Origin: a virus
Length of the DNA stretch: 20,476 nt
Reading direction: 5' to 3' (one strand)
IMG/VR virus record: IMGVR_UViG_3300037586_001158
Span: 1-20,476 of that record
The first letter of the stretch is position 1. Each line of letters opens with the position of its first letter. The position numbers were made by a program, and so were the translations under genes. The notes beneath the pieces are model-generated. The model was not told the origin of the DNA and did no database searches. It saw nothing but the letters and a program-made list of their open reading frames with translations. Shown here one piece after another: positions 100 to 10,711 of this stretch.

Positions 100-1702
100 T
101 CCCTTACTGTGGGTAGCTGACAACGGGATGATAACAGAACAGGGCAAAAAGCTTGAGTTCTCGGATCATAAATTCTTAGTTGAACCCTGGAAAGATATGA
201 CTCCTATCCAGGGGATCATAAAATGTTCACAGATCGGTTGGAGTACATTGACTATTTTAAAAACATTGTGGGCTGCGAAATATAAAAACTGGAACATCAT
301 TTATACTCTACCAACTGGTGATGGTGTGTCAGACTTTGTAAGTTCTAAGGTCAATCCATTGATAACTAACAATCCTGTTATTGGAGAGTTGGTAAAAGAT
401 AAAGATACTATTCAACAAAAGAAAGTAGGACAAGCATTTATCTTTTATCGTGGTACTCATTCCGGCAAGTCGGGTGATAGTAAGATGGAGTCTGGTCGCG
501 GTATTATGCTTACATCAGATTTAAACGTACACGATGAATCAGATCGTTCGGATCAAACTATTATTGAACAATATGAATCAAGGTTGGCGAATAGTGAGTA
601 CAAAGGAAGATGGTATTTTTCAAACCCGACAGCACCAGGGATTGGGGCTGATAAGTATTGGAAATTATCTAATCAAAAACATTGGTTTGTCACTTGCTCT
701 CACTGTAGTTATAAGCAGTTTATGCAGTTCCCGGACAATATTGATAAGGAAAAAGGGATATTTATATGTACTAAATGCAAAGGGGAAATATCTAATGAAG
801 ATAGGAGAAGAGGACAATGGGTAAAGAAATACAATAATAGAGATATAGCAGGGTATTGGATCAGTCAGTTGATGAATCCAAAGACAAGTGCTAAGGATAT
901 ATTACTCGCACACGCTACAAAAGACACACAATTCTTCTACAATTTCGTTCTCGGGCTTCCTTATAAGGGCTCAGACGTGGTCGTAGATAGAGAAGTTATC
1001 GTATCAAATATCGTTTTGACTGATAATAAGCGTCTAGATGTGGCTATTGGTGTGGACAATGGGGTTGAAAAGCATTATGTAGTCGGCAATCAAGAGGGAA
1101 TATTTGAAATGGGAGTGACAAAAGACTGGAAAGATATAGAAGATTTGAAGATAAAATACAAGGCTAAGATGGTTATTGATCTTAATCCGTATCCAAAAGA
1201 GCCAAAAAGATTGGCAAAGAAATATCCGGGTGAAGTATATTGTTCATTTTACAAGCAAGACAAGGATCAGCTCGGGACTGTTCAGTGGGGTAAGAAAGAA
1301 CGCAGAGGTATGGTTTACTCTGATAGGAATAAAATCATACAGGAAGTTATTGATATGATAGTTGATGGTGGTGTAAACTATAATATGGTTGAATCAAGGT
1401 TAGAGGAATATATCACTCATTGGGATAATATGTATCAAGTCATTGAAGAGTCAGCTCTCGGTGTTCCACGAGCAGTATGGAAAACTGTTGAGAATAGACC
1501 TGATCATTTCGCTCACGCAACAGTGTATTGGATGTTAGCTATGATGAAAATAGGTGTTGGTGGGGTAGTTACTAATAAAGTTAAACCAATACAAGGCAAG
1601 AAATCATTTTATGTTAATGAGGATAATACAGTTAAAGCAACCGATATCGGAGCAGAAATCAAGTTCAAAGATGATACAGCAACAGATTGGAAACACTGCT
1701 AA
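38..1702 (+). CDS. terL: Phage terminase large subunit, GpA-like
   Basis: This is the DNA-packaging motor: an ATPase that translocates phage DNA through the portal, with a nuclease that cuts concatemers. Counting from the ATG at 38 (554 aa), a Walker-A-like KCSQIGWST lies at about residues 62-70 and a Walker-B-like HDESDR at about 165-170. A CxxC...CxxC zinc ribbon (Cys 220, 223, 244, 247) sits between the ATPase and nuclease, as in lambda gpA relatives. RNase H-like nuclease acidic residues are seen in GVDNG (340), VIDLNP (381) and PDHFAHA (489). An ATG at 17 would add seven residues. I prefer 38 because the base before it is T, as at the other start sites here, and it overlaps the upstream frame less. 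The stop is TAA. The 3' end overlaps the next small gene. No Shine-Dalgarno sequence is visible. Confidence 0.9.
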   Translation: MKNGVNKDYLKALSRKVQKTNPLLWVADNGMITEQGKKLEFSDHKFLVEPWKDMTPIQGIIKCSQIGWSTLTILKTLWAAKYKNWNIIYTLPTGDGVSDFVSSKVNPLITNNPVIGELVKDKDTIQQKKVGQAFIFYRGTHSGKSGDSKMESGRGIMLTSDLNVHDESDRSDQTIIEQYESRLANSEYKGRWYFSNPTAPGIGADKYWKLSNQKHWFVTCSHCSYKQFMQFPDNIDKEKGIFICTKCKGEISNEDRRRGQWVKKYNNRDIAGYWISQLMNPKTSAKDILLAHATKDTQFFYNFVLGLPYKGSDVVVDREVIVSNIVLTDNKRLDVAIGVDNGVEKHYVVGNQEGIFEMGVTKDWKDIEDLKIKYKAKMVIDLNPYPKEPKRLAKKYPGEVYCSFYKQDKDQLGTVQWGKKERRGMVYSDRNKIIQEVIDMIVDGGVNYNMVESRLEEYITHWDNMYQVIEESALGVPRAVWKTVENRPDHFAHATVYWMLAMMKIGVGGVVTNKVKPIQGKKSFYVNEDNTVKATDIGAEIKFKDDTATDWKHC

Positions 1703-1802
1703 ATGTCCAGTCTGCAATAAATTACTATTCAAGTTTAATAAAATAATAGAGAACAATATAACGATTAAGTGTAGTAAGTGTAAGAGTTTACTGCTAATCT
1801 AG
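1671..1802 (+). CDS. Com-like zinc-ribbon protein (Mu Com family)
   Basis: A 43-residue protein built around one zinc ribbon: CPVCNKLLFK, an 18-residue spacer, then CSKC (Cys at about 12, 15, 34, 37). CxxCNKLLFK followed by IKCxxCK closely resembles phage Mu Com, a small RNA-binding protein that activates translation of the mom DNA-modification gene by binding a stem-loop in its mRNA. That role is family knowledge. No mom-like gene is visible here, so the target is unknown. The gene starts inside the end of terL and a terminator hairpin follows 19 bp after the TAG stop. The start is uncertain: an ATG at 1611 in the same frame has T at -1, as most genes here do, but would overlap terL by 92 bp. 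The ATG at 1671 gives a protein of usual Com layout. Confidence 0.75.
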   Translation: MIQQQIGNTAKCPVCNKLLFKFNKIIENNITIKCSKCKSLLLI

Positions 1803-1820
1803 AGTACCAGAGTGCCATAG

Positions 1821-1855
1821 AGCACCAGAGAACCTAATAAATCCTGGTGCTTTTT
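1821..1855 (+). terminator. Intrinsic terminator after terL and the Com-like gene
   Basis: AGCACCAG (1821-1828) and CTGGTGCT (1844-1851) form a perfect 8-bp stem around a 15-nt loop, and the stem runs directly into a T-rich tract (TTTTTATTT). It lies between the Com-like gene and the portal gene, so it may partly separate packaging from head transcription. It could also be a structured target for the Com-like RNA-binding protein; that is speculation. Confidence 0.75.
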
Positions 1856-1868
1856 ATTTAAAAATACT

Positions 1869-3596
1869 ATGCCAATAAATACAACAAGTACACCTCATTT
1901 TGAAAAACCAAAAGAAGGTGTAGAAGATACCAGTCCATCATTGGAATTAGATTTAAAAGATGATGAATTGATTAAAACAATAGATGCTTTGGTGAAAGAA
2001 TCATCAGGCACAAAAGCTGATATGGACAAGCGTGGTCGTGAGAACGAGCTTTACTGGAAAGGTAACCAGTTAAACGAACAGAAGATGCGACCGCATCAGT
2101 CCAAGATAGTAGACAATAGATTGTTTATGTCGCTTGAAACCATTATTCCTATAATGACTTCAAGAACTCCTGAACCAACTATTCGTATGAAAGACGATCA
2201 GTTGAAAGAGGATACAAAGCAATTATTAATGAATATGTGGGAAGTACCCACTGATAAGTGTGACACTGAGGGGATGCAATATAATGTTGAGATGATATCA
2301 CGTCACTGGGCAATATATCTTATTGGTATATTGAAGTATGAATATAACCCGGAGATTGATGATATTGAAACCACCTGGAAGAAACCAGACAAAATGATAT
2401 TTGATAAGAACGCTAGAAAGTTTAGCGAGAGTAGATTTGTCGGTGAGTGGTGTGATTCAACAGCAGAAAAACTAATTGAGTTATTCCCGGACAAAAAAGA
2501 TAAGATTGAAGCGAGTGTTGGTAAGAACAATCTAATGTCTGTTATTAAGTATATAGAGTTTTGGACACCGAAGTATGTGGTATATAAATACAACAACATA
2601 CTTCTAAAGAAGATGAAGAATCCTAATTGGGACTATGGGGATATGAACGAGTCCGGAGAACCTATGTTCAATCTATATCCTGAAAAGAAGATGCCTTTTA
2701 TTCCATTAACTGTATTTAATATCGGTAATACTGTATATGATGATACATCTTTAATGGAGCAAGGCAAAAGTATCCAAGATGGTGTTAATAAGAGAAAGAA
2801 CCAAATCAATGACAATGCTAATGATAATGGCGTACTTGTTGGTAGTGGTGACTTTATAGAAAAGAAAACTCTTGAATCATATACTGGTGATCCGAATGAA
2901 AAGTTGTTCATAAAGAGTGGATCAGCCGCCGAAGCAGTCAATCGTATCCCACCAAAACAATTACCAGCGTTTGTATTCAGCGATCTACAAGATAGTAAGT
3001 CTGAAATTGATAATATGTTTGGAGCTCATTCTACTACTAGAGGTGAACAGACTGGACAAAAGACACTTGGTGAGGCTAAGTTGTTAAAGTCTGGTGATCT
3101 AGGTCGTATTGATTTATTCAGTCGTGCATTGGATCGTGTGGCTCAAGAGTGGTACACTGCTATGTTGCATATGTACCTTATTTACAAAACTGAACCAGTT
3201 GAAGTAAATACTAATGACGAGGACAATACTTCAATTATATTTGATAGGAATAACTTCATTGATCCGGAAACTGGCAAGTTGGCTAGTATAAAGGTTAAGG
3301 TGAAACCTGGTAGTGCAATGAGTATTGATAAAGATACTCGCAGAGCAGAAGCTGTTCAACTAATGACTGCCGGTTTGATTGATCCAATATCTTTCTATGA
3401 GCGTATGGATTATGCCAACCCTAAAGAAATGGCTATGAAGTTATTTATTTGGCAGACAAATCCTATCGCATTATTCCCTGAAATGATGGAGGAACAGCAA
3501 CAAGCACAAATAGAACAAACTGGTAATGTACCTTTACCAGAAGGAATTCAACTTAATTTACCTGGTGGTGGAGAAACGCCGCCTGTAACACAATAA
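1869..3596 (+). CDS. Phage portal protein
   Basis: The portal is the dodecameric ring at one capsid vertex through which terminase pumps DNA and to which the tail attaches. The 575-residue length fits podovirus-type portals. Recognisable features are an N-terminal acidic arm, then ENELYWKGNQ and KIVDNRLFMSLETIIPIM at about residues 58-95, a helix-rich middle, and a stem/wing-like MEQGKSIQDGVNKRKNQIND segment at about 297-316. The C-terminal tail (about 545-575) is rich in Gln, Pro and Gly. Its position between terminase and scaffold/capsid genes supports the call. The ATG follows AAAATACT with no Shine-Dalgarno sequence. The stop is TAA, and a single T separates it from the next ATG. Confidence 0.85.
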   Translation: MPINTTSTPHFEKPKEGVEDTSPSLELDLKDDELIKTIDALVKESSGTKADMDKRGRENELYWKGNQLNEQKMRPHQSKIVDNRLFMSLETIIPIMTSRTPEPTIRMKDDQLKEDTKQLLMNMWEVPTDKCDTEGMQYNVEMISRHWAIYLIGILKYEYNPEIDDIETTWKKPDKMIFDKNARKFSESRFVGEWCDSTAEKLIELFPDKKDKIEASVGKNNLMSVIKYIEFWTPKYVVYKYNNILLKKMKNPNWDYGDMNESGEPMFNLYPEKKMPFIPLTVFNIGNTVYDDTSLMEQGKSIQDGVNKRKNQINDNANDNGVLVGSGDFIEKKTLESYTGDPNEKLFIKSGSAAEAVNRIPPKQLPAFVFSDLQDSKSEIDNMFGAHSTTRGEQTGQKTLGEAKLLKSGDLGRIDLFSRALDRVAQEWYTAMLHMYLIYKTEPVEVNTNDEDNTSIIFDRNNFIDPETGKLASIKVKVKPGSAMSIDKDTRRAEAVQLMTAGLIDPISFYERMDYANPKEMAMKLFIWQTNPIALFPEMMEEQQQAQIEQTGNVPLPEGIQLNLPGGGETPPVTQ

Positions 3597-3754: not shown

Positions 3755-4501
3755 ATGTTTGAAAATATACAAGCGGATGTGAAACTAGAAAGCACATCAG
3801 AGGAGGAGAAAACTCCTACAGAGTCGCTACCTGAAGATAAGAAACCAGCCGAAGTTAAATCGAACGTCAGTGAAGACGAAAAAACTCCAGATGAAACTAA
3901 AGTTGAGGGCGAGGAAGTTAAAAAAGAGGAAGAGCCTTTTCATAAGCATTCTCGTTTTAAGGAGTTGGTCAAGGAAAAGAACGAGTTGAAGTCAACACTG
4001 GCTGAAACTAAAACTCAAATTGACGAACTTCGACAGCAGATAGCTGACTCACAAGGTCAGAAGAAAGCTGAAGTACCAGAGTTTGAAAGCTTTGAAGATA
4101 TAACAAAATATATCGCTGAGATGCCTAATAAAATTAAAGAACAAATCGTTGGTGATTTGGAGGCTAATAAAAAGGCAACAAAATCAGAGGAAAGTAAAGC
4201 TCAAGATATGGTCACTGAACAACTTAATGCTTTAAAGGATGATGGAAAGGAATTTAAAGAGGATGAACTTATCAAGTTTGCTCTTGAATATAAAATTACC
4301 GATCTATCAACTGCGTTAACTCTTATGGATAAGGTTAACAAAACATCTAAAGAAGCACTAACTAAGGGTGAACAGATTGGAAAGCGTAAGAAAGACTCTG
4401 GTCTTAAATCAACTCCTACTTCTAAAAAGGAAGCCGGAGTATATAATCCCGGACAATCTCTTGATGACATCATCGAAGAGGGCAAAAAGGGACTTAAATA
4501 A
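3755..4501 (+). CDS. Scaffolding protein candidate, acidic and coiled-coil
   Basis: A 248-residue hydrophilic protein directly upstream of the major capsid gene. Residues 1-62 are extremely acidic (many Glu, with Lys and Pro) and look disordered. Residues about 65-105 (FKELVKEKNELK through DELRQQIADS) should form a coiled coil. The middle is helical and the C-terminal 45 residues are basic (GKRKKDSGLK, TPTSKK) before a short helix, DDIIEEGKKGLK. This layout, with a long helix and a basic C-terminus, is typical of phage scaffolds, which template procapsid assembly and then leave. The function rests on position and composition; no sequence family is diagnostic. No Shine-Dalgarno sequence is present. 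The TAA stop lies 16 bp before the capsid ATG. Confidence 0.7.
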   Translation: MFENIQADVKLESTSEEEKTPTESLPEDKKPAEVKSNVSEDEKTPDETKVEGEEVKKEEEPFHKHSRFKELVKEKNELKSTLAETKTQIDELRQQIADSQGQKKAEVPEFESFEDITKYIAEMPNKIKEQIVGDLEANKKATKSEESKAQDMVTEQLNALKDDGKEFKEDELIKFALEYKITDLSTALTLMDKVNKTSKEALTKGEQIGKRKKDSGLKSTPTSKKEAGVYNPGQSLDDIIEEGKKGLK

Positions 4502-4517
4502 TGTTTAACTAACGAAT

Positions 4518-5573
4518 ATGACATTCGACTCATACGTACAGTCTTTAACACAAGACAAAATCGTACCTAGTGTTGTTGATGGTGCATTTAACGGCAATGT
4601 TCTAACCGCTCGTTTACTTAAAAATGGTAAAAGATGGGATGGCGAAGCATTGAAACGACCAATGATGTATCAGAAGAATTCAGCACAAGGTTCATATAGT
4701 GGATTTGATCCTTTATCAACAAGCAAGATTAATACTAGAATAATTTCTAGTTTTGATCCTAGACAATACTACCAATCAGTAGTTCTATCTAATCTTGATC
4801 TAGCTGTTAATGCTACTCAATCAAGAGTTTTAGATCTATTAAAGGTAGAAATGGAGACAGCAAAAATGTCAATGGCTGACAGTATCGGTGGTTTATTCTA
4901 CGGAGATGGTACTGGAAATAGCAACAAAGACTTCTTAGGTCTAGGTGCTGCTGTTGATGATGGAACTAACGTTGCTACTTATGGTACTCAAACTCGTTCT
5001 TCTTACAGTGCATTACAATCTAGTGTAACAACTGGTGTTGGAGCATTGACTATTAGTGCAATGGCTACTTCATACAATGCAGCTAAGGTTGGTACTGCTA
5101 AACCAACATTGATCGTTACTGACGAATCAGTTTGGACTTACTACGAATCTCTAGTACAACCACAAATCCGTGCTAACTACGATGTTGGTGGATATAAACA
5201 AGTTACATCAATGGGTATGGCAGAAAACAAATCAGCTCTTGGAGTTGGTGAAGTTGGCTTTGATGCTCTAATGTATCGTGGTGTACCTGTAGTTGCTGAT
5301 GAAAAATGTACATCAGGCTTCATGTATATGCTTAATGAAGATTACCTTAAATGGTATGGTCTTAAACATCCACAACACGGAGAAGTTGAAATGAAGATCA
5401 ACAATATCCAATCCGGTGCTTATGAAAATAAAGTACCTGTATATGGTTGTGCTTGGACTGGCTTAAAAGAACCTGTTAATCAAGACGCTGAAATAGGACA
5501 ATTCCTATTATATGGAAATTTAGTTTGCTGGAGTCCTAGACACCAAGCAGTTCTAAAAGGAATTACATCATAA
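4518..5573 (+). CDS. Major capsid protein (HK97-fold type)
   Basis: This 351-residue protein should build the icosahedral shell. Features typical of HK97-type coat proteins are a central GGLFYGDGTGNSNKDFLGLG segment (about residues 125-144), followed by a region ending in LIVTDESVWTYYESLV (about 198-213), FDALMYRGVPVVADEKC (about 248-264) and a C-terminal strand with NLVCWSPRHQAVLKG (about 334-348), which resembles the P-domain end of many coats. It follows the scaffold candidate by 16 bp and precedes small head proteins, the usual order. Its codons favour strong T- and A-ending forms, as expected for a highly expressed gene. No Shine-Dalgarno sequence; start context ACGAAT. The stop is TAA. 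Confidence 0.85.
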   Translation: MTFDSYVQSLTQDKIVPSVVDGAFNGNVLTARLLKNGKRWDGEALKRPMMYQKNSAQGSYSGFDPLSTSKINTRIISSFDPRQYYQSVVLSNLDLAVNATQSRVLDLLKVEMETAKMSMADSIGGLFYGDGTGNSNKDFLGLGAAVDDGTNVATYGTQTRSSYSALQSSVTTGVGALTISAMATSYNAAKVGTAKPTLIVTDESVWTYYESLVQPQIRANYDVGGYKQVTSMGMAENKSALGVGEVGFDALMYRGVPVVADEKCTSGFMYMLNEDYLKWYGLKHPQHGEVEMKINNIQSGAYENKVPVYGCAWTGLKEPVNQDAEIGQFLLYGNLVCWSPRHQAVLKGITS

Positions 5574-9457: not shown

Positions 9458-10711
9458 ATGACACTTATAACAAACTCAACACCAGCAGAACGTAGTCGGG
9501 GTTGTATGTTTGCAGAAGACTTTGAAAATGCTAATCAGGTAGCAAGAAATGGTGCTACTGTTGGAGGAAGCCCAGTAATAAATAATGGTCTAACAACGGA
9601 TGGGGTAGATGATGAAGTAACTTATGCTCAGGATATAAACAATACGAAGTCTATTTCATTCTGGGTGACACTAGCTACTGATACAGAGAATATAATGCAA
9701 CTTAGTGCAAGTCACTCTATAGAAGCTGGGTCTGGTACTTTAACAGCGACAGGCTTAACTTCACCTACGTTTTACGTAGATGGAGTAGCTACTGCTACAA
9801 TCACAACAACTAGAAGTCATGTGACTATTACAACTGCAACTGCTTTTAACGCAGATGCTATCCAAATCGGACAGGATGCTTCATTCGGACAGTTCAAAAT
9901 AGAGGATGTAAAAATGTGGACTACTGAATTAACTGCTGCTGAAGTGACAGACTTGGCAAATGATAGCACTTACGAGTATATAAATGAGACTATTCTGGAT
10001 TTGCCCATGGGAATGGGGCAGCATGACATTACAAATACACAGACTCTTGATTTAAGTGCTACTGGGAATGATGCAACATGGACAGCAGGAGCGACAGCTC
10101 CAACAAAATTAACTGCCAACAAGGGGTACACTTTTGATGGCACTGCTGACTTGATGTATTTAACAAATAGTGGGACAGTAGATGTTGCCTATCAGACTAT
10201 AGGTGCAAGTGATAATTACACTATAGCTGTTTGGATTAAAACATCTGGGGGTACAGGAGGAGGTGCTAGTTGGTGGGCAAATGATGTTATAATGGAGCTT
10301 AGAGAAGAAACTGCATCTGATATTGATACTGCTTTTAGTTTTGGTATTGAGTCAAACACACTCTCTTTAGGAAGGTCAGATGCCTCTACAGCAGAAAGGG
10401 AAGTCGGGAGTGCTACGGTAAATGATGGTATTTGGCATCTTGTTTGTGCTGTTGTAACTGATGATGTTGTAGATTTTTATATTGATGGTGCTCTTGATAT
10501 ACAAAGAACTTACACAACTGTTACAGGTGATTCTTCTGTAGGCACTAATTCATCTAATTTCTTCATAGGGTCAAGATCGACCGATACTGGTGCTGCTGGG
10601 AATTGGTTCGCAGGGGATATGATGGGTGTAAAAATGTGGGGTAGTGCTTTAACTGCATTGCAAATAGCAGACTTATACCAAAGAGAATTTAAGAAAATTA
10701 ACGATATATAA
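9458..10711 (+). CDS. Two-domain LamG/concanavalin-like adhesin
   Basis: A 417-residue protein with two lectin-type beta-sandwich units. Unit 1 (about residues 18-170) has KSISFWVTLATD, SGTLTATGLTSPTFYVDG and FKIEDVKMWTTELTAAEV, the last a typical LamG end. Unit 2 (about 180-410) has a classic LamG pattern: YTFDGTADLMYLTN, YTIAVWIKTSGG, DGIWHLVCAVVTDDVVDFYIDG, NFFIGSRSTD and AGDMMGVKMWGSALTALQIADLYQ. LamG-like domains bind glycans or proteins, so a surface or adhesion role is likely, but specificity is unknown. Unit 1 matches the middle unit of the next protein closely. No signal peptide is seen, as expected for a virion protein. The start is coupled to the stop of the previous gene (TAGTATG). 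Confidence 0.75.
   Translation: MTLITNSTPAERSRGCMFAEDFENANQVARNGATVGGSPVINNGLTTDGVDDEVTYAQDINNTKSISFWVTLATDTENIMQLSASHSIEAGSGTLTATGLTSPTFYVDGVATATITTTRSHVTITTATAFNADAIQIGQDASFGQFKIEDVKMWTTELTAAEVTDLANDSTYEYINETILDLPMGMGQHDITNTQTLDLSATGNDATWTAGATAPTKLTANKGYTFDGTADLMYLTNSGTVDVAYQTIGASDNYTIAVWIKTSGGTGGGASWWANDVIMELREETASDIDTAFSFGIESNTLSLGRSDASTAEREVGSATVNDGIWHLVCAVVTDDVVDFYIDGALDIQRTYTTVTGDSSVGTNSSNFFIGSRSTDTGAAGNWFAGDMMGVKMWGSALTALQIADLYQREFKKINDI

Follow-up and report, generated by a model that had tools for sequence, protein, structure and literature searches.

A 43-residue Com-like zinc-ribbon gene between the terminase and portal genes of a 20,476-base IMG/VR virus record (the window, that is, the whole stretch of DNA analysed, which may be partial) is directly followed by a tandem array of four GAGNNCC words. 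We tentatively propose, with a confidence somewhat short of even, that a Com-type RNA-binding regulator may act through this array to control the portal gene and the head genes behind it. The initial annotation had suggested that a Com homologue might regulate a gene other than mom through a nearby stem-loop. The first part of that idea gains from the array, which had gone unnoticed there, provides independent support and, judged from sequence, is the strongest evidence for a Com-type regulator, whereas the stem-loop chosen as the target loses weight.

A Com-like zinc ribbon between terminase and portal

The window features described here lie on the plus strand. The gene for the GpA-like terminase large subunit (TerL; 17–1702; PF05876, 1.8e-13; phrog_675, 3.9e-86) is overlapped at its end, over 32 nt, by an ORF at 1671–1802 that begins with ATG and encodes MIQQQIGNTAKCPVCNKLLFKFNKIIENNITIKCSKCKSLLLI; an alternative in-frame ATG at 1611 would give a product of 63 residues. 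Downstream lie the portal gene (1869–3596; PF16510, 6.2e-12; phrog_156, 5.6e-17), which is the proposed regulated gene, a scaffold-like gene (3755–4501; phrog_8865, 9.7e-5) and the gene for the major capsid protein (4518–5573; NF033394, 1.2e-51; phrog_9953, 5.8e-49). On inspection of the start regions, no Shine-Dalgarno sequence was seen before the portal gene, and neither a Shine-Dalgarno sequence nor another sign of translation was found for the ORF; most gene starts inspected in the window are without a clear Shine-Dalgarno sequence and have A/T-rich leaders, the exceptions being the start at 9458 (GGAGG) and that of TerL (GAGG). TerL itself contains a zinc-ribbon-like CSHC..CTKC stretch at residues ~209–249 (PF09855, E 0.013, below the cut-off).

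The pattern of the ORF product, C-x2-CNKLLFK ... IKC-x2-CK, had been likened to that of Com in the initial annotation, and several lines of comparison agree with this resemblance. The best PHROGs matches are phrog_6417 ("translational regulator", 1.3e-5) and phrog_13819 (gpCom, 1.9e-4), and our own profile of 58 Com sequences, taken from among the matches listed, ranks the ORF first of 537 six-frame segments of at least 20 residues, with an E-value of 4.5e-5 against 0.66 for the runner-up. In an alignment with five phage Coms (Mu, JD024, PAN70, Mcat3 and DVM-2008) and the same-slot relatives L024 and L043, the ORF agrees at every one of the seven invariant columns (C, C, L, L, I, C, C), and the Com core of the Cys4 ribbon, C-x2-C-x2-LL..I-x-C-x2-C, is present. 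Scored with the Pfam Com family (PF10122), the ORF reaches 16.4 bits and stays short of the cut-off of 22.9, whereas L024, at 26.1 bits, and L043, at 26.8 bits, pass it. When the six frames of the record were searched with this family, the sole match was at the place of the ORF (E 3.9e-4), and the same search yielded no match in 14 control genomes. Another zinc ribbon, PADR1, stands slightly above Com in the ORF's Pfam scores, and the best NCBIfam match is ECs_2282, a small zinc-binding family (23.9 bits; cut-off 37). The product ends 6 residues past the last Cys and lacks the disordered C-terminal tail of the Com type, a tail described as dispensable for RNA binding in the available part of the relevant report (PMC6483171). 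Judged by these comparisons, the similarity to Com exceeds chance, and the ORF is to be called Com-like rather than a certified Com member.

The AlphaFold2 model has four short strands with an only fair mean pLDDT of 73.6, and a fold search with it gave no PDB match at E <= 0.001. VIA Z-scores did not exceed 3.0, with LysW, ZitP and ribosomal and polymerase zinc ribbons as the matches; such matches to a predicted model would give the fold class only. A search of named phages with the 43-residue product returned four weak records, none of them convincing.

Related loci were collected by capsid and portal alignments, giving 87 non-redundant loci, the window included, with a readable TerL–portal junction. 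The slot holds a zinc ribbon in 48 of them (assigned by a profile at E < 1e-3, which the profile seeds match by construction), a small Cys-free family in 15, no room for a gene in 9 and something else in 15; an earlier sorting by pattern gave 47 zinc, 31 other and 9 tight loci, and five loci differ between the two sortings. Among the 45 loci with a TerL matching that of the window, the corresponding counts are 13 zinc ribbons, 15 Cys-free, 8 without room and 9 others. Near relatives carry a ribbon (L024, L094 and L096), no room (L021, L022, L098 and L099) or something else (L023 and L100). The four cysteines and the gene position, on the conservation of which the earlier proposal depended, thus recur in many relatives and are patchy among the near ones, and the slot zinc-ribbon gene is frequent but replaceable; the invariance of the cysteines in our alignment A3 is partly due to selection, its 37 proteins having been picked as Cys4 genes.

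Several observations on the slot and its carriers stand apart from the zinc ribbon. The second slot family, without Cys pairs (e.g., MIGGKLIKIDISEEDARLFLEFQ..), was found in L026, L030, L031, L035, L039, L040, L041, L053, L057, L067, L069, L073, L082, L087 and L088. In the phage collection, only the TM7 phage DolZOral124_53_65 and a Manatee Spring phage matched the portal protein at E <= 1e-5. A scan of the genome collection with the capsid alignment gave two loci on one Prevotella MAG contig, too distant for a host to be named; on this 71-kb contig the 36%-identical capsid locus occurs twice (L213 and L214), ~40.1 kb apart, a spacing as in a concatemer of a ~40 kb phage genome.

The ORF could be an ordinary gene of this slot, namely a nucleic-acid-binding zinc ribbon for packaging or head assembly, with the hairpin and array behind it being a terminator with a chance repeat. 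We regard this explanation as unlikely, although it draws support from the frequency of zinc ribbons in the slot, most of which are of a longer type with weak Com scores. The window ORF itself scores higher with the Com profile (18.6 bits) than with a profile trained on 34 other slot zinc ribbons from A3 (11.8 bits), which speaks against it; the respective values are 37.6 and 11.7 bits for L043 and 26.1 and 15.8 bits for L024.

The GAGNNCC array and the Com loci

In an RNA selection with a Com zinc finger, GAG(N)2CC was recovered, often twice, and the bound form was CC(N)2-3GAG in a hairpin loop, as described in the available part of the report (Nowacka et al., 2019; PMC6483171). In the window, four tandem GAGNNCC words (at 1802, 1810, 1820 and 1828) form a candidate Com operator at 1802–1834, directly behind the ORF and before the portal ATG. 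The GAG and the CC are constant in all four copies, and the N pair varies (TA, TG, CA and AA). Four such words fall within 33 nt, and none of 300 shuffles of the window reached even three in 40 nt; the window as a whole shows no excess of the word (18 occurrences, 14.9 expected), so that the signal lies in the local cluster. Within the array lies the composite CCATAGAGCACC (1815–1826), after the motif in the part of that report available (PMC6483171); the strict form CC-N3-GAG-N2-CC occurs once in the 20.5 kb, at 1815, against 0.65 expected on both strands, which amounts to ~0.0013 for an 80-nt stretch of one strand. By these counts, such an array is very unlikely to have arisen by chance at the ORF–portal junction, a point that weighs against an ordinary slot gene with a fortuitous repeat.

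The array could stem from tandem duplication, which would weaken the independence of its four copies. Divergence cannot test it, since the five same-species contigs are identical to the window over 1401–2100. GAGNNCC was absent from the examined gap of the relatives L024, L043, L044, L052, L078, L101 and L104, and repeated 5-base words in other slot gaps amounted only to scattered triples. When a collection of viral contigs was scanned for the exact four-word array, seven contigs were returned, five of them from the window species. An array with the window spacing (GAGATCC/GAGCGCC/GAGCACC/GAGAACC) lies on the minus strand of L216 at 1749–1781, just before a Shine-Dalgarno-like AGGAGG and an ORF, with no zinc ribbon beside it. 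In L219, a GC-rich 48-kb contig, the array at 4751–4783 lies just behind a 281-residue frame whose end carries a C-x-C..C-x2-C stretch; this stretch scores 7.4 bits with the Com profile, and such an ORF occurs at 55 of 4000 random spots. Neither contig matches the window TerL or portal, and both arrays are suggestive only.

For comparison, at least 80 IMG/VR Com loci were chosen by similarity to the JD024 Com, and merging of those with the same first 40 residues left 58 among the matches listed. The composite CC-N2-3-GAG-N2-3-CC was present within 80 nt behind the last Cys codon in 54 of these 58 listed loci (5.3 on average and 10 at most in 100 shuffles), and in 17 of 19 when the listed loci were reduced to below 70% identity (300 shuffles: mean 1.65, maximum 6); a single GAGN2-3CC also occurred in 5 of 19 and 7 of 19 control stretches of these loci. 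By contrast with the listed Com loci, none of 48 other Cys-rich slot ORFs checked carried the composite, a result that counts on both sides, for a Com-type operator in the window and for an ordinary slot gene; these 48 were taken from the pattern table with duplicates dropped, so that some loci contribute more than one ORF and some entries are other Cys-rich ORFs, and the slot ribbons of L047, L064, L113, L118 and L126, missed by the pattern, lie outside them. Clusters of at least three GAGNNCC in 40 nt were found twice in the 58 listed Com loci, both in the 80-nt stretch, with no further cluster in their 0.52 Mb of strand-bases; in the relatives, 2.4 Mb contained two, which occupy matching positions on two related contigs. 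In an unbiased word count over the listed Com loci, GAGNNCC was enriched over shuffles and stood outside the top six words with a 2-base gap.

The position of the window array is similar to that of the composites. Measured from the last Cys codon, the composite GAG falls at +27 to +31 or at +47 to +53 among the matches listed, with the window GAGs at +21, +29, +39 and +47; the next-gene ATG is 74 nt past that codon in 28 of 51 listed Com loci (range 55–123), and the portal ATG 87 nt past it, next-gene start codons in these loci being first-ATG guesses. Relative to the com reading frame, the composite GAG sites of the listed loci number 52, 16 and 11 in the three frames, and their presence in all three makes a cause in the coding sequence alone less likely, despite the predominance of one frame. 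The com–mom junction of Casadabanvirus JD024 (GAGCGCCATGGAGCGCC) and window positions 1810–1826 (GAGTGCCATAGAGCACC) are identical at 14 of 17 positions.

Among these 58 listed loci, the gene after com is a C5 methylase in 25, a D12 methylase in 17, Mom in 5, an N4/N6 methylase in 5, colicin M in 2 and something else in 4, as typed by pattern and tblastn with a Pfam check on ten examples; the next gene is therefore DNA-modifying in 52 and not in 6. Across L133–L212, among the matches listed, the same GAG/CC composite accompanies com genes that precede Mom or a methylase of the C5, D12 or N4/N6 kind, and com stands before colicin M-like genes in L179 and L196 and before a gp25-like baseplate gene in L162. 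Taken together, the comparison suggests a general cassette of zinc ribbon, GAG/CC words and next gene, which would precede DNA-modification genes of four kinds, occasionally another gene and, in the window, the portal gene. If this is correct, the rule CC-N2-3-GAG-N2-3-CC behind a Cys4 ribbon would predict Com targets in phage genomes.

The prevalence of modification genes after com also lends itself to a different account, in which com and a modification gene were once present together and the latter was lost, so that com and its array are left before the portal gene by chance or serve only in self-control of the com mRNA. The initial annotation had seen no mom, and this stands for the searched parts of the window: no DNA-modification gene was recognized by Pfam among 15 of its proteins, and tblastn with three Mom and three methylase queries returned no hit under E 0.5 in the window, L002 or L018. 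This absence and the patchy occurrence of the slot gene among near relatives fit such a relic, but the array seems undamaged, each of its fixed bases being preserved, and Com-like short forms that pass the Pfam cut-off also precede the portal gene in L024 and L043. On balance, a relic or pure self-control is also improbable, and a regulator of the portal gene is the reading that we pursue below.

The portal-leader hairpin and the proposed switch

A hairpin followed by TTATTT occupies 1819–1853, and its core stem begins 18 nt past the ORF stop codon; the strong stem-loop with a 15-nt loop described in the initial annotation is borne out by an 8-bp core stem, AGCACCAG (1821–1828) with CTGGTGCT (1844–1851), and is followed by the tail TTTTATTT. 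The predicted fold of the 81-nt stretch 1795–1875 has an energy of -18.5 kcal/mol (z -3.2), a stability matched by 3 of 200 shuffles. With its G+C-rich stem and subsequent T-run the hairpin has the features expected of an intrinsic terminator, and in our own terminator scan it is the only terminator-like site at or below -8 kcal/mol on either strand of the window (a second hairpin scan, limited to loops of at most 8, does not list it). Rfam gave no match in the window at gathering thresholds and none in 1600–2000 at E-values up to 1.

Terminator-like hairpins are a common feature of this position. In the 130 nt before the portal gene they were found at 17 of 48 zinc loci, 10 of 15 Cys-free loci, 6 of 15 other loci and none of 9 without room, against a shuffle expectation of ~1.4 over all 87; by the pattern labels, and with start codons taken as first-ATG guesses, one is present in 16 of the 25 zinc loci that leave 40 nt or more of space and in none of the 22 that leave less. 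Since 16 of 30 non-zinc slot loci have a similar hairpin, it is common to portal leaders and no evidence for Com by itself, a fact that also accords with an ordinary slot gene. The stem-loop as the Com target, as first suggested, is not supported by these counts, and the known Com words, which lie in the array, overlap it only partly; the hairpin alone was therefore rejected as a specific Com site.

With portal starts again taken as first-ATG guesses, an extended -10 word, TGNTATAAT, precedes the portal gene at 20 of 87 loci, against ~0.8 expected (14 of 48 zinc, 2 of 15 Cys-free, 4 of 15 other and 0 of 9 without room), and was not found before the portal gene in the window. Over L010–L127, terminator-like hairpins occur at 34 of 91 portal junctions and 36 of 92 capsid junctions and before TerL at 0 of 36, and TGNTATAAT occurs at 20 of 91 portal and 12 of 92 capsid junctions. 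The recurring terminators and TGNTATAAT before portal and capsid genes are a block-wise transcription layout. Although this layout and the excess of TGNTATAAT would suit a simple intrinsic terminator at the end of the terminase transcript, with the portal gene served by its own promoter and the zinc protein acting elsewhere, that explanation is very improbable for the window, where TGNTATAAT is absent before the portal gene and where transcripts from a promoter upstream of the hairpin would have to pass it to reach the portal gene as well.

Under the regulator reading, the ORF product would be a minimal Com-type RNA-binding zinc ribbon, retargeted to head genes, that recognizes the four GAGNNCC words directly past the stop of its own gene, within the leader RNA of the portal gene, and its binding would control the portal and following head genes. 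We infer that the ORF is translated and that its product attaches to the array. Copies 3 and 4 of the array supply the 5′ arm and first loop bases of the hairpin, and binding may compete with this structure, so that RNA polymerase or ribosomes pass on to the portal gene. When predicted folds were computed with sites 3 and 4 forced to stay open, copy 1 stood in for the 5′ arm (-11.8 kcal/mol), and forcing all four sites to stay unpaired removed the hairpin (from -18.5 to -2.6 kcal/mol), which suggests that, with every site of the array occupied, the terminator would not form. A more specific version, in which this regulator, redirected from DNA modification to virion assembly, acts by antitermination, seems rather unlikely as it stands: array binding would block the terminator in the portal leader and allow head-gene transcription once enough protein is present. 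The opposite sign is conceivable if binding stabilizes the hairpin.

No stable stem is predicted around the portal start codon, for which a 91-nt fold gives pairing of 0.07–0.25 (a prediction for a short stretch only); as this start is predicted to be open and has no Shine-Dalgarno sequence, a mom-type opening of a closed start is less likely here. In the relative L078 (3053–3130), the portal start codon is predicted to lie in a stem, CATTTAG..CTAAATG, reminiscent of the translation-inhibitory stem of mom, in a fold that is not significant (z -1.3). If the antitermination version is true, the locus would represent a TRAP-like attenuation switch made of one gene and acting on late genes of the phage. 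The cassette, if correctly read, would offer a small RNA switch, open to testing, that governs the expression of head genes in many uncultured phages of a large group.

Comparison with known systems

Com is the translational activator of mom. The window shares with the Mu com–mom system the Cys4 ribbon CxxCNKLLFK..I+C+xC, GAG/CC words behind the zinc-ribbon codons and a small gene directly before its (proposed) target. It differs in that the next gene is mom in Mu and the portal gene in the window, and in that the window product has no C-terminal tail and falls below the Pfam cut-off, with a portal start outside any predicted stable stem. Repeated short RNA words or an early terminator before an operon are also known from TRAP-type attenuation and from lambda Q at pR′, which serve as a working analogy to the window only, with no sequence relation claimed.

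Com genes before genes other than mom have been described elsewhere. In Pseudomonas syringae, com precedes levansucrase and glycosyl hydrolase genes, a neighbourhood that resembles the window in having a non-mom gene behind com and differs in that this gene is not a head gene; according to the available part of that report, com beside lscB was not needed for levan formation or lscB expression (data not shown there; PMC3899960). The lscB case is a warning against inference from adjacency, and the adjacency of com to a gene proves nothing. In the parts of the literature covered by our search, no description of Com acting on a portal gene was apparent. Com also adjoins DNA methyltransferase genes (C5, D12 and N4/N6) in prophages, for example genes 21 and 20 of Burkholderia phage KS5, as stated in the available part of the source (PMC3091744). 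In the IMG/VR Com–methyltransferase loci among the matches listed, the next gene modifies DNA and the operator falls largely within the tail of the com coding sequence, whereas that of the window lies behind the stop codon; these loci nonetheless share with the window the same composite and a similar distance to the next start.
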